DNA of 64,000 nt from Methylothermaceae bacterium. GTDB lineage: Bacteria > Pseudomonadota > Gammaproteobacteria > Methylococcales > Methylothermaceae. The notes beneath the pieces were generated by a model. It saw only the letters and a program-made list of their open reading frames with translations, had not been told where the DNA came from and ran no database searches. Below are positions 59,157 to 64,000 of this stretch, piece after piece (positions within the stretch are counted from its first letter, which is position 1; every line of letters begins with the position of its first letter). The translations under genes and the position numbers were made by a program. Location: positions 1-64,000 of the forward strand of contig JALSIB010000009.1 in the NCBI GenBank assembly GCA_026981855.1, in the 5' to 3' direction.

Positions 59157-60203
59157 ATGTCGGTGTGGTGGCTGGTGGACGACAGGCCCGGCAATCTGAC
59201 TCAGTCCTCAGGATTGCTGGATGCCTTGAAGCTTCCATACCAATGCAAGCACTTGAATTTCGGTATCATCCCGGCTTCCGGGAATGTTTGCCGTACCCGC
59301 TTCCCGGAACTGGCGCCTCCCTGGCCGAGGCTGTTGATCACCACCGGAGGGCGTACGGCCTTGCCTGCGGAGTGGGTCAAAAAGCAAAGTGGCGGAATGA
59401 CGAAGGTCGTCATGCTCGGGCGCAAGGGTGCGCGCAGACTGCTGAGCTTTGATGCCGTGGTGGTGCCTTTCTATGCCAGATTGCCGAAACGGGACAATCT
59501 CATCGAAACCCTCCTTCCCCTGTGCCGGGTGAACACGCGATCATTGCGTCAGGCGGCCATGCAATGTCCTGGCCTCCTGAGCAGCGCCGATAAGCCCCGG
59601 GTCGTGGTTCTTGTCGGCGGTCACAGTGGGCGTTTTCTTTGGAATACGGAAATCGCCTTGCAAATGGCGAAGGATTTGTCCCAGTGGGTCGCCACCCAAG
59701 GCGGCTCGCTTACGCTGATTGCGAGCCGCCGCACCGGTGAGGAGGAAACGGCGGCCCTGGCGCGTGGATTGAGTGGCAAGGGAACATTGATTGCCTGGAA
59801 ACCTGGCGTGAGCGTGCCTTATTTGTCTTATCTGGCTGCCGCCGATGTGCTGGTGGTGACCGGCGACAGTGAATCGATGCTGGCCGAGGCGCTGGCCACC
59901 TCCTCTCCCGTATATCTCTACAGGTTGCCCGAACTGACGGTTACGGCCAAGAAAAGATATAAGACGATATGGCGAGTGACGCTTTATTCTTTTTTGAAAA
60001 AACGGGAGGAGTATGCCAAGTGGATACATGAAGGAAGGGTACTGCCCCCCCCGCGGGACTATGCCGCGTTACATGAAAAACTGGAAGGGTTGGGCCGGTT
60101 GCGCTACTTCTTCCCTGCTGTGGAGCTGGTGACGGCCAAGCGGCGCCCCCTCAACGAGGCGGAGGGTGTGGCCGCCGAGCTGCGCCGCCGCGGGGTGATT
60201 TGA
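59157..60203 (+). CDS. ELM1-family (DUF1022) protein
   Basis: A 348-residue protein of the family named after plant mitochondrial fission factor ELM1. The start VWWLVDDRPGNLTQSSGLLD fits the family's G-x-x-x-Q motif. A central VVVLVGGHSGRFLWNTE (about residues 149-165) and a later SYLAAADVLVVTGDSESMLA and YLYRLPEL look like the two halves of a GT-B glycosyltransferase fold, so a nucleotide-sugar or lipid-linked sugar role is plausible. No bacterial member has a firmly known function. It starts three bases after cobO and ends 13 bases from the convergent nucleotidyltransferase gene. Confidence 0.82.
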   Translation: MSVWWLVDDRPGNLTQSSGLLDALKLPYQCKHLNFGIIPASGNVCRTRFPELAPPWPRLLITTGGRTALPAEWVKKQSGGMTKVVMLGRKGARRLLSFDAVVVPFYARLPKRDNLIETLLPLCRVNTRSLRQAAMQCPGLLSSADKPRVVVLVGGHSGRFLWNTEIALQMAKDLSQWVATQGGSLTLIASRRTGEEETAALARGLSGKGTLIAWKPGVSVPYLSYLAAADVLVVTGDSESMLAEALATSSPVYLYRLPELTVTAKKRYKTIWRVTLYSFLKKREEYAKWIHEGRVLPPPRDYAALHEKLEGLGRLRYFFPAVELVTAKRRPLNEAEGVAAELRRRGVI

Positions 60204-60216
60204 AGGGGGGTGGAAA

Positions 60217-60996
60217 TCAGCGGGTGCCGGTATGGATCGCCTTTGCATCCCCCCAATATTCCGTTCCCCAGTTCCAGGCCGCGATCATGGATTCGGCATG
60301 TTTCAGGTCCAATGGATAATCGACCTCGGCCCAGTCGAGCCCTTCCACCGATGCGGTCCATACCGCCCGGGTTTCATTGGCGATCTGATCGATGACAGAC
60401 AGATACCATCTTTCCAGCGCCACCGGCTCCTGCATACAACGTTCGATGGTGGCGCGAAAGATCCGGGCACCTTCGGAATCGAAGCGAATCATACCGATGG
60501 ATTCGCCATCTACCTGTTCCAGGGGAAGTTTTTTGCCGATCGACAGCAATCGCTCGTCGTCGAGAATGAGCTTCATGTCGTCCTCGTCGTAATGAGGCTT
60601 GTGATCCCGCGCCAGAGTGATGGGGTGTTGTCCGCCCGAAAGCAGCCGTTGCGCCACCGAAGGTTCGAACAAAGTGTCGCCATTGATCAGCAGGAAATCC
60701 CCCGCGAAGTGTTCCCGCACCATCCAGCAACTGGCCAGATTGTCGGCAACTTCGAAAAAGGGATTGAAAACGACATCGACAGCGCCTTTCCCGTAGCGGT
60801 TGTCCAGCAGGTCGTGAACCTTGTCGGCCTTGTATCCGGTCACCACGACAATCTCGTCGACAGCGTTTTCCCTGAGGGCGTCAATCTGCCATTCGATGAG
60901 GGTCTTGCCCTCGATACGCAAGGTGCATTTGGGCCTTTCCGCGGTGAGAGGCAAAAGCCGGGAACCCTGTCCGGCGCTGAGAATGATGGCTTTCAT
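60217..60996 (-). CDS. Sugar- or polyol-phosphate nucleotidyltransferase
   Basis: A 259-residue nucleotidyltransferase started at ATG 60996, with AAGGAAG six bases before. The nucleotide loop is MKAIILSAGQGSRLLPLTAE followed by RPKC; LINGDTLFEP near residue 105 holds a metal-binding Asp, and the DLDW-like LDWAEVDYPLDLKHAESM near 222 the second. The closest families I know are the LicC/phosphocholine- and inositol-phosphate-cytidylyltransferases, so the product may be a CDP-alcohol. That would suit the divergent CDP-alcohol phosphatidyltransferase next door. The substrate cannot be read from the sequence. Confidence 0.85.
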   Translation of the reverse strand: MKAIILSAGQGSRLLPLTAERPKCTLRIEGKTLIEWQIDALRENAVDEIVVVTGYKADKVHDLLDNRYGKGAVDVVFNPFFEVADNLASCWMVREHFAGDFLLINGDTLFEPSVAQRLLSGGQHPITLARDHKPHYDEDDMKLILDDERLLSIGKKLPLEQVDGESIGMIRFDSEGARIFRATIERCMQEPVALERWYLSVIDQIANETRAVWTASVEGLDWAEVDYPLDLKHAESMIAAWNWGTEYWGDAKAIHTGTR

Positions 60997-61235
60997 GGTG
61001 CTTCCTTGAAATATGGTTGACTGTTTTGCGTTGCTGTCGGGCAACAGCAATTTCAAATTCTGATTTTTTTGTTGTTTGCGCTAATATCCTGTCGATTGTG
61101 ACAGAATTATGACTTTCTGTTGAGAGAGAATATATAAAATGTTGCTCGAGCACAAGCAGCCATAGGTAAAATTGTTGCTTTTTGACAAATCGGCCTGCAG
61201 GGCCATCGATGAAATTTCACAAGAGGTGCGAGGAG
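60997..61235. other. Divergent control region of the lipid-headgroup genes
   Basis: This AT-rich gap separates the nucleotidyltransferase (leftward) from the CDP-alcohol transferase (rightward). It holds a hairpin at 61031-61050 (TTGCTGT, ACAGCAA) in the leader of the leftward gene and the inverted repeat listed separately. A rightward promoter may be ATGACT at 61109-61114 with TATAAA at 61133-61138. Confidence 0.5.
61101..61120. promoter_or_regulatory. Inverted repeat, possible operator
   Basis: ACAGAA and TTCTGT face each other across eight bases. The right arm overlaps the proposed -35 box of the CDP-alcohol transferase gene, so a repressor or activator could act on one or both divergent genes here. 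Confidence 0.4.
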
Positions 61236-62456
61236 ATGCCTGTTTATTACCGGATTGTCGGAGCCGATACCCTGCCCATATGGGGATTGAGTCAAACTCA
61301 GAGAACTGCCAGGGTTTTGACCAAACTGCTTCAGGATGAGAAAGAGAAGCCCGAAATCTGGCCGGAGGATCCTGGTTCTTCAATCGACAGCGAAGGGGTT
61401 TTGTTGCTTCGTGCCGATTATCTGGTCGATGAACGGGTCATCGCCGGTCTGGTCAAGGGAGGAGAGATAAACCGTGTGGTGGAGAAAAACGGCGTTCCGA
61501 TCGTCGCCTGGGTCGCTCCCGGGCAGGTGAAGGCGGCGGAGAAGCTGCTTTCCGGCGGGCAGCAGAGCGAGGGTTCGGTATTGACCAGGGAGCCGCTGGA
61601 AAACATGGGGGCCGCCGTTTTGCGCAAACTGCGCAAGGTTTCTCCCCCCTTCGCCCTTTTGGTGACGCGGGACACGGTCAGGCAGGTGGAACATCATCTT
61701 TTCAATGAGGCCTACAAGGGCATCACCGACCTGGTGACCAAGTGGGTGTGGCCCAGGCCCGCCGAACAGGTGGTGCGTTTCTGCGTCAGGCATGGCATCC
61801 GTCCCAATCATGTCACGGCGATGAGTTGGATACTGGCCATCTTTGCCGGAATTTTGTTCTATCGGGGGTTTTTGTGGCCGGGTTTGTTGCTGGGCTGGAT
61901 CATGACGTTCTTGGATACCGTGGATGGCAAGCTGGCCCGGGTGACGGTGGATTCCAGTCCGTTCGGCCATTTGTTCGATCATGTCCTGGATTTGATTCAC
62001 CCCCCCTTGTGGTATCTGGCCTGGGGATTGGGGTTGTCCCATTATCAGCCGCTTTTGCTCATGCTGCCGGTCATGCAGGCTTTCTGGCTGCTGTTGGCCG
62101 CCTACGTCGGGGGGCGGGTGGTAGAAGCAGTGTTCAAGAAATTCGTTGCCGGTTTCAGCATTTTCACCTGGCGACCTGCCGACTCCATCAACCGCCTGAT
62201 TACTGCACGGCGCAATCCCTGCCTGATTTTGCTGACGCTCAGCCTGATCGCCGGCAGGCCGGATCTCGGCTTTGAGGCGGTCACCTTGTGGACAATCTTT
62301 TCCACCTTGTTTCTCCTGCTTCGATTGGGAGAAGCGATTTACCGCAAGAAAGCGGGCAGTCCTCTTCAATCGTGGCTGGATCGGATCGACCCGAAACGGG
62401 CCCGGGGGGTCGAGCGCTGGTTCATCACCCCGGCCGGGAAAGGCCCGGCAGACTGA
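61236..62456 (+). CDS. CDP-alcohol phosphatidyltransferase with N-terminal degenerate nucleotidyltransferase-like domain
   Basis: A 406-residue protein started at ATG 61236 (MPVYYRIVGADTLPIWGLSQ); ATG 61209 is a close alternative. The C-terminal half is a membrane CDP-alcohol transferase with the full motif D-G-x2-A-R-x8-G-x3-D-x3-D in DTVDGKLARVTVDSSPFGHL and FDHVLD (about residues 228-252) and about six helices. The N-terminal 170 residues look like a nucleotidyltransferase fold (GLSQTQRTARVL, then VLLLRADYLVDERVIAGLVK) but lack the G-x-G-x-R and GD loops. The family therefore resembles fused IPCT/DIPPS enzymes that make inositol phospholipids, with the transferase half inactive and supplied by the neighbouring gene. 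Head-group unknown. Confidence 0.8.
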   Translation: MPVYYRIVGADTLPIWGLSQTQRTARVLTKLLQDEKEKPEIWPEDPGSSIDSEGVLLLRADYLVDERVIAGLVKGGEINRVVEKNGVPIVAWVAPGQVKAAEKLLSGGQQSEGSVLTREPLENMGAAVLRKLRKVSPPFALLVTRDTVRQVEHHLFNEAYKGITDLVTKWVWPRPAEQVVRFCVRHGIRPNHVTAMSWILAIFAGILFYRGFLWPGLLLGWIMTFLDTVDGKLARVTVDSSPFGHLFDHVLDLIHPPLWYLAWGLGLSHYQPLLLMLPVMQAFWLLLAAYVGGRVVEAVFKKFVAGFSIFTWRPADSINRLITARRNPCLILLTLSLIAGRPDLGFEAVTLWTIFSTLFLLLRLGEAIYRKKAGSPLQSWLDRIDPKRARGVERWFITPAGKGPAD

Positions 62457-62459
62457 GCG

Positions 62460-63332
62460 TTATTGCGCCTTTTGTGTGGTAAGGATTCTGGCGACGGGGC
62501 TGCCCAGTTTCAGCTTGTCGCCGGGGGCGCGTGGCAACCACTCCACCGCCCCTTGGGGAAACAGCAGGATGACGGTGGAACCCATGTTGAAGCGGCCCAT
62601 CTCCTCCCCCTTGCCCAGCTCGACTTTTCCCGAGGGATAATGCCACGACTGCAGCGTAGGCCGTGTCGGTGGCGTGACCACGCCATGCCAGACGGTTTCT
62701 ATGCTGGCCACCAGCAACGCGCCCACCAGCACCATGGCCATGGGGCCGGCTTCGGTGTCGAACAGGCACGCCACCCTTTCGTTTCGGGCGAACAGGTTTT
62801 CCACCGCTTCGGTCGTGGCGGGATTGACGCTGAAAAGACGCCCTGGAATATGGATCATCCGTCTCAAGGAGCCGGTGACGGGCATGTGGATTCGATGATA
62901 GTCGCGGGGTGACAAGTACAGGGTGGTGAATTCGCCATCCTCGAACCGGCTTGCCAGCTCCGGGTCGCCGAGCAAGGCGGCGGCCGAATAATCTCTGCCT
63001 TTGGCTTGAATCAACCATTGTGAGGTGAGGGCGCCCATCTGGCTGATGGTGCCATCCACCGGGCTGACGATGCTTCCCGGCTCTTCGTCGATGGGCCTGA
63101 TTCCAGGCTTCAATGGCCGGGTGAAGAAGTCGTTGAAAGAGGGGTAAGCAGTTGGCTCGCCGACCGCGGCTTCGCCCATGTCGATGTCGAATTTCAGGAC
63201 GAACAGGCGGATGAGGAGATCCTTGACCCAGGGGACTTTGCAGTGGGTCAGCTTTCCCACCAATCTGGAAAGTGCGTGGTGGGGCAGTGGATACTGCCAC
63301 AATGCGAATAAGGATTGTTTCAAGGTGGGCAT
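62460..63332 (-). CDS. psd: Phosphatidylserine decarboxylase proenzyme
   Basis: A 290-residue enzyme that makes phosphatidylethanolamine from the product of PssA. It self-cleaves at the Gly-Ser bond of the GST motif, seen here as F-N-M-G-S-T-V-I-L-L-F (near residue 250) where most proteobacteria have L-G-S-T. Further motifs are SFNDFFTRPLKPGIRPID near 65, DGTISQMG near 93 and YHRIHMPVTGSL near 147. It overlaps the upstream kinase gene by 13 bases and converges on the CDP-alcohol transferase gene with a three-base gap. Confidence 0.96.
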   Translation of the reverse strand: MPTLKQSLFALWQYPLPHHALSRLVGKLTHCKVPWVKDLLIRLFVLKFDIDMGEAAVGEPTAYPSFNDFFTRPLKPGIRPIDEEPGSIVSPVDGTISQMGALTSQWLIQAKGRDYSAAALLGDPELASRFEDGEFTTLYLSPRDYHRIHMPVTGSLRRMIHIPGRLFSVNPATTEAVENLFARNERVACLFDTEAGPMAMVLVGALLVASIETVWHGVVTPPTRPTLQSWHYPSGKVELGKGEEMGRFNMGSTVILLFPQGAVEWLPRAPGDKLKLGSPVARILTTQKAQ

Positions 63333-64000
63333 CCGTTTCGATTGACCTCGATTCGATGGATTTGATGATCGGTCCCCAGTTCCAGCACGATATCCGCTCG
63401 CCGGGGCATCTCTTCGAGCATCCAGCGGGTCAAACGTTCATAATGCTGGATGAAGCGATGCAGTTCGCGTTCGTTCATCAACTTGAGACGCCCCTTTGAG
63501 TGGTCTGTAGCAAATTCCGCCAGTTTGCGTTCCTGTTCCAATCGCCAGCGGAAAACACATTCCATGCTTGGGACCTTGAGCATGATCAGGTGATCCAGAA
63601 AGGCGAAGAGGCGCTGGTAGGGTCCCTCGAGCTGCTCATTGACGTAGCGGCGCCAGCGTCCATCCGGATCTTCCCGCCTTTCCAGCTCGTTGATGGGTGT
63701 ATCCAGAGCCGGTCGCGGTTGGGGTCTGGCACCGACACACCAGCCTTCGAACAGGATGATGTCGACCTCACCCCGCCAGACGGGCCATTGGGAGAGGGGC
63801 TTGCGATCATCCAGCGCCTTGTCGAAGACCGGGAGGGGAATGGTGTCTTCGGGGCCGGCGGCTTGCAATGCGCCCAGGGTTTTGATGCCCAGCTCCACAT
63901 CGTGGGTGCCGGGAACGCCCCGCGTGCGCAGCAAGGGGTGAATGGTGGCGGCAAGGTGTTCCCTTTCCGCACGGGTCAGATAGAGGTCGTCGATGGAAAG
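63320..64000 (-). CDS. Glycerate-kinase-like P-loop kinase, cut by the window edge
   Basis: The last 226 residues of a kinase related to plant-type D-glycerate 3-kinase; the N-terminus with the P-loop lies beyond 64000. The visible part starts LSIDDLYLTRAEREHLAA, then HPLLRTRGVPGTHDVELG, both typical of this family's substrate and metal region. VDIILFEGWCVGARPQP near visible residue 95 is the next family motif. In a RuMP organism glycerate 3-kinase could feed serine- or glyoxylate-linked carbon into glycolysis, but the family also has other substrates. The gene overlaps psd by 13 bases. Confidence 0.85.
   Translation of the reverse strand, partial: LSIDDLYLTRAEREHLAATIHPLLRTRGVPGTHDVELGIKTLGALQAAGPEDTIPLPVFDKALDDRKPLSQWPVWRGEVDIILFEGWCVGARPQPRPALDTPINELERREDPDGRWRRYVNEQLEGPYQRLFAFLDHLIMLKVPSMECVFRWRLEQERKLAEFATDHSKGRLKLMNERELHRFIQHYERLTRWMLEEMPRRADIVLELGTDHQIHRIEVNRNGCPP

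Follow-up and report, generated by a model that had tools for sequence, protein, structure and literature searches.

The closest described counterpart of the locus considered here is the ceramide phosphoglycerate pathway of Caulobacter crescentus (the CPG/CPG2 pathway; PMC11324152, PMC12275187), whose phosphosphingolipid region is CC_1152–CC_1165 (PMC11324152). Purified CpgD (CC_1152/CCNA_01210) uses CTP and phosphoglycerate in vitro (PMC12275187), with D-2-phosphoglycerate being a better substrate than 3-phosphoglycerate, and its CTP- and glycerate-binding residues have been named from crystal structures (PMC13228409). CpgA (CC_1159/CCNA_01217) is a predicted CDP-alcohol-type transferase (PMC11324152), and the ceramide kinase CpgB is required for ceramide phosphoglycerate in Caulobacter. 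Similar gene sets have been reported for Azotobacter vinelandii, Pseudomonas luteola and Nitrosomonas eutropha (PMC11324152). Here we analyze a divergent gene pair, a cytidylyltransferase-like gene (60217–60996, minus strand) and a CDP-alcohol transferase gene (61236–62456, plus strand), in a 64,000-nucleotide stretch from a Methylothermaceae bacterium (contig JALSIB010000009.1, positions 1 to 64,000), which we refer to as the window. The initial annotation of this DNA knew of no defined pathway with this set of genes in methanotrophs. The description of the Caulobacter pathway makes that statement outdated, although a literature search by title found no paper on this sphingolipid pathway in methanotrophs.

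We propose, with a probability of roughly 0.8, that the two divergent genes form the head-group module in a phosphosphingolipid pathway of the Caulobacter type, which would place phosphoglycerate onto ceramide, the substrates being predicted from sequence. In the first step, suggested by homology and active-site residues, the 60217–60996 protein would form CDP-glycerate and pyrophosphate from CTP and 2- (or 3-) phosphoglycerate. In the second, suggested by homology and gene context, the 61236–62456 membrane protein would transfer phosphoglycerate from CDP-glycerate to a hydroxyl of a ceramide lipid with release of CMP. Ceramide would be supplied by spt, acpR, cerR, aasR and cerS, which are present on another contig, and further steps may be carried out by CC_1153-, CC_1158- and CC_1161-like genes. 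A previously unassigned "phospholipid" locus would thereby yield a testable prediction, namely that Methylothermaceae methanotrophs should make phosphosphingolipids, the lipid class that supports Caulobacter survival without lipopolysaccharide (LPS).

The 60217–60996 protein, a predicted CTP:phosphoglycerate cytidylyltransferase of the cpgD/CC_1152 type by homology and residues, matches NTP_transf_3 (PF12804, E 5.5e-14), with PF00483 also above cut-off, and belongs to the LicC/IPCT-type nucleotidyltransferase family. Its best solved relatives are the CTP:phosphocholine cytidylyltransferase 1jyk (LicC) and the Thermotoga enzyme 4jd0, which has been named an inositol-1-phosphate cytidylyltransferase (PMC12275187). 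We placed the CpgD residues on the window protein by their spacing in the published description, without the Caulobacter sequence and with a shift of at most 2 residues permitted in loops. Placed in this way, Gly12, Arg16, Lys26, Asn90, Thr93 (Ser/Thr), Asn110, Gly111, Asp112, Met147, Lys161, Ser170 and Trp201 are shared by the window protein and all 47 orthologs. Five of these (Asn90, Asn110, Met147, Lys161 and Ser170) are the residues that hold glycerate in CpgD. As a control, a 30% identical paralog of another genome differs at the Asn90, Met147 and Ser170 positions. This residue match is indirect, and it is the best evidence suggesting that the window protein is a phosphoglycerate enzyme. 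Its likeness to CpgD lies in the common family, in the CTP and phosphoglycerate contacts placed by spacing and in the cluster partners seen in relatives. Unlike cpgD of Caulobacter, the window gene points away from the cpgA-like gene and lies apart from the ceramide cluster, and its activity is a prediction.

The 61236–62456 protein, CpgA/CC_1159-like by PF01066, motif and model, matches PF01066 above cut-off (E 4.7e-8) and has a complete D(x)2DG(x)2AR(x)8G(x)3D(x)3D motif, whose residues D227, D230, G231, A234, R235, G244, D248 and D252 are invariant across 36 aligned relatives. The open reading frame list has this gene running from 61182, its first possible start, to 62456; the start that is conserved is the ATG at 61236. 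The protein is composed of an N-terminal cytidylyltransferase-like domain (residues ∼1–160) followed by a CDP-alcohol transferase membrane domain (∼165–375). Its model (mean predicted local distance difference test score, pLDDT, of 90.4) has the whole two-domain fold in common with AF2299 and Archaeoglobus IPCT-DIPPS (4o6m, 4mnd). The AF2299 match has a Z of 22.2 and a root-mean-square deviation of 3.5–3.8 Å over 311–317 residues in both domains, and the match to IPCT-DIPPS has a Z of 20.0. These enzymes differ from the window protein in their substrates and in sequence (∼16% identity to DIPPS), and the window genome has a separate cytidylyltransferase gene. The assignment of the N-terminal domain is supported by the structure comparison, while a profile-profile comparison with the cytidylyltransferase lent it no support at the sequence level (probability 7.5). 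Our tree unites the Methylothermaceae proteins in a single clade (support 100/99) inside a group (99/93) with proteins from Chromatiales and Competibacteraceae, the genes of which belong to sphingolipid clusters or adjoin ceramide genes.

A variant of this proposal keeps the pair in a sphingolipid pathway and has it activate another phospho-alcohol, such as choline, ethanolamine, glycerol or inositol phosphate, for ceramide. The nearest solved enzymes act on phosphocholine and inositol-1-phosphate, the transferase is built like IPCT-DIPPS, and the substrate can switch through single residues. However, the five glycerate-holding residues are invariant in all 47 orthologs, the Asn110 equivalent is absent from 1jyk and 4jd0 in the printed alignments, and no match to the inositol-1-phosphate synthase family PF01658 was found in the window genome, as compared with matches in 6 of 14 control genomes. 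We therefore regard another head group on ceramide as improbable.

The assignment of phosphoglycerate transfer to ceramide draws further support from gene context. In G044, a genome of the same order and another family, both pair genes lie 7 kb apart within one complete spt–cerS gene run. This run contains genes for an acyl-ACP synthetase, a cerR-type reductase, an acyl carrier protein, serine palmitoyltransferase (Spt), the cytidylyltransferase, which there stands beside ceramide genes, a MobA/CofC-like protein, a GNAT ceramide synthase, lptF, lptG, a metallophosphoesterase, the CDP-alcohol gene and a TAM41-like gene, which is the gene set of CC_1152–CC_1165. Scanning 84,980 species genomes, we recovered at least 580 CDP-alcohol gene relatives. 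Among the best 80 of these, drawn from Nitrospirota, Thermodesulfobacteriota, Nitrosospira, Salinicola, Pseudomonas, Verrucomicrobiota and others, 78 loci have at least one flanking sphingolipid-cluster gene (scored as the ceramide synthase bCerS, CC_1153-like, CpgD-like, lptF2/G2, CC_1158-like or CC_1161-like, i.e. TAM41). In the 32 loci with full flanks, a TAM41-like gene was found in 32, ceramide synthase and a CC_1153-like gene in 29 each and a CpgD-like gene in 21. Loci carrying the sphingolipid-cluster gene set include Azomonas L105 and Pseudomonas duriflava L112. The ceramide kinase (CpgB) gene is placed between the CDP-alcohol and TAM41-like genes in 62 of 71 scorable loci, and it was not recognised at that place in G044, L070 and L139. 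Across 369 gammaproteobacterial genomes, bCerS is present in 24, comprising all 12 genomes with the CDP-alcohol gene and 12 of the 357 others (Fisher p 2e-16, a test that ignores relatedness; nine families contribute). As a separate observation, the Nitrospirales NPIRA04 and NPIRA01 (L094, L103, L125) have two cpgA-like CDP-alcohol genes per locus.

This strict co-occurrence with ceramide genes also bears on the suggestion that the pair makes an inositol-phosphate glycerolipid, an option raised by the initial annotation, or a soluble product, for example the compatible solute di-inositol phosphate. The structural match to AF2299 and to IPCT-DIPPS of Archaeoglobus would fit such a product. Against it stand the ceramide association, the low identity to DIPPS, the CpgD-like residues and the absence of PF01658 from the genome, for which we rejected the inositol phosphate route; we consider it very unlikely.

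The pair itself is conserved. It is divergent and adjacent in five genomes of the same genus (G002, G003, G005, G006 and G009), so that the adjacency in the window is beyond chance and the divergent arrangement described by the initial annotation is borne out. The start codons are separated by ∼239 bp (60997–61235, assigned to neither strand). When this interval was scanned for promoters, no sigma-70-like site emerged, and the "one control region" ascribed to the pair is geometry only. The neighbouring genes behave differently. An ELM1 gene, psd and a P-loop kinase gene keep their place beside the pair, in the same order, in the close sister G005 (L068) only, and none of the three was found within ∼8 kb of the pair in G002, G003, G006 and G009. 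Conservation of the neighbourhood thus holds for the pair and not for the genes around it, and for this reason the unit to explain is the pair alone. That all five neighbors, psd and the kinase included, form one local phospholipid pathway is hardly credible and was rejected, since the shared gene order in G005 is offset by different neighbors in 4 of 5 relatives and by the nature of the kinase, a D-glycerate 3-kinase whose operon also encodes an aminotransferase and a hydroxypyruvate/glyoxylate reductase.

The window genome carries further genes that phosphoglycerate transfer to ceramide would draw upon, with the sphingolipid gene set spread over three contigs. Contig C38 has spt, acpR, cerR, aasR, cerS and a CC_1153-like gene, and its Spt exceeds the NCBIfam serine palmitoyltransferase cut-off NF047599 (610 vs 500). 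On contig C8, a TAM41-like gene (CC_1161-like, PF09139) and a CC_1158-like gene, both called by homology to cluster genes of relatives, adjoin the only lptF/lptG pair of the genome. We note at this place (L185, C8:12000–25000) that LPS and sphingolipids may share the single Lpt permease pair, whereas Caulobacter has second copies. An MsbA-like ABC transporter gene on C38 (L060:14859–16682), found also in G140, G187, G395 and L119, adjoins spt, ELM1 or ceramide genes across several families and is a candidate sphingolipid flippase.

Several points weigh against the proposed head-group module. Within the genus the pair and the ceramide cluster are unlinked, and two members of the genus with complete ceramide clusters, G001 and G008, have no good match to either pair gene, which may reflect losses of the pair. 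The CpgB ceramide kinase family (DAGK_cat, PF00781) has no match in the 99.15% complete window genome, the search being confined to this family and giving a control match in 13 of 14 genomes. We found no assayed enzyme of this group outside Caulobacter, the CpgA reaction is unproven even in Caulobacter, and the orthology to Caulobacter CpgD and CpgA is drawn from cluster position and from residue spacing taken from the literature. The gene order differs as well: the CDP-alcohol gene adjoins the ceramide kinase and CC_1161-like genes in relatives, and in Pseudomonas duriflava and a Nitrospirota locus it occupies the CpgA position next to CC_1160-like and CC_1161-like genes, while in the window psd comes next. 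The position of the CpgA gene is not essential to its function, however, because published sets are scattered in Sphingomonadales (PMC11324152).

Compared with Caulobacter CpgA, to which we liken it by the common CDP-alcohol transferase domain, the window protein would act without CpgB, and its acceptor may differ. With no ceramide kinase of the DAGK type found, ceramide may receive its first phosphate by direct transfer from CDP-glycerate or from an unrelated kinase. The latter may exist because the CC_1161-like gene has been kept without the CpgB kinase. Possible acceptors of the second step are ceramide, ceramide phosphate (via an unrelated kinase) and ceramide phosphoglycerate. The kinase-less gene set would provide a natural test of direct ceramide charging by CpgA, an open step in the Caulobacter scheme. 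It also distinguishes this genome from the gammaproteobacterial and betaproteobacterial sets of A. vinelandii, P. luteola and N. eutropha, which have the same genes, as does the split over three contigs. We view the locus as a variant of a known bacterial sphingolipid pathway that is dispersed, is without the known ceramide kinase and has an ELM1 type alongside. The outline of the initial annotation, in which a phospho-alcohol is activated and transferred to a lipid by one module, survives with the lipid class most likely being ceramide and not a glycerophospholipid.

The ELM1 gene (59157–60203, plus strand; PF06258, E 1e-52) had been included in the pathway by the initial annotation. The family takes its name from plant mitochondrial fission, and PF06258 is present in 80 of the 369 gammaproteobacterial genomes. 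We distinguished a sub-type solely by alignment to approximately the first 257–282 of the 304 profile positions, not by a tree. It occurs in 14 genomes, 12 of which have bCerS (Fisher p 2e-14), and the window ELM1 and three paralogs in the same genome belong to it. Genes of this sub-type are often found within a sphingolipid cluster, for example immediately behind the TAM41-like gene in G140 and next to spt in both G140 and G401. Outside the genus, the closest relative that we saw has 42% identity to the window ELM1 and lies directly 3′ of the CDP-alcohol gene in Competibacteraceae L119. In a separate case, G004:C256 (L032:9110–10238), ELM1 is followed by only a C-terminal piece of a CDP-alcohol gene at the contig end, and another such C-terminal piece opens contig C34.

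A sequence search of the PDB with the ELM1 profile gave weak, unrelated-looking matches only, while a structure search with the AlphaFold model (pLDDT 86.5) gave GT-B folds, including the galactolipid synthase MGD1 (Z 17.4), MurG and GumK. UDP-GlcNAc 2-epimerases, which have the same fold, match the model as high or higher, so the fold does not prove sugar transfer. The association with ceramide genes and the predicted fold suggest that the ELM1 sub-type is probably a sphingolipid glycosyltransferase, this being its likeliest role. The window protein would then add a sugar to the same lipid class as the pair, a weaker part of our proposal. In the literature searched we found nothing linking bacterial ELM1/DUF1022 to glycosyltransferases or sphingolipids, and the link to ceramide genes looks new; it suggests a definite function that can be tested in a widespread family of bacterial proteins with a name from plant mitochondria. 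Sgt1 and Sgt2 of Caulobacter, which glycosylate ceramide (PMC6445935), are possible analogues of this role, likened by function only. A fuller proposal, in which direct CDP-glycerate transfer makes ceramide phosphoglycerate without a kinase and the ELM1 sub-type, as a new sphingolipid glycosyltransferase family, completes an undescribed glycosylated phosphosphingolipid in methanotrophs, is tentative and on balance rather unlikely.

All genes named by the initial annotation were found in place. ELM1 is the final gene of a uppS–cdsA–dxr–rseP–dsbC–cobO run. On the other side of the pair lie psd (62460–63332, minus strand; PF02666, above the PS_decarb cut-off) and the P-loop kinase gene (63320–64294 of the contig, minus strand, cut by the window end at 64000), the nearest solved relatives of which are D-glycerate 3-kinases. 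The psd gene overlaps the kinase gene, which in turn overlaps a hydroxypyruvate/glyoxylate reductase gene, and the reductase gene is preceded by that of an aminotransferase near the BhcA/serine-glyoxylate type (contig C9, to 66480). With genes of these types overlapping or abutting, the right-hand neighbors look like a serine-cycle-type operon carrying the phospholipid gene psd, and psd and the glycerate kinase are best taken as ordinary neighbors of the pair rather than as members of its pathway. The glycerate kinase may supply 3-phosphoglycerate to the pair, although this would not be specific and its linkage to the pair is not conserved. A second CDP-alcohol phosphatidyltransferase gene in the window (PF01066, 42397–43146) probably encodes an ordinary phospholipid synthase.

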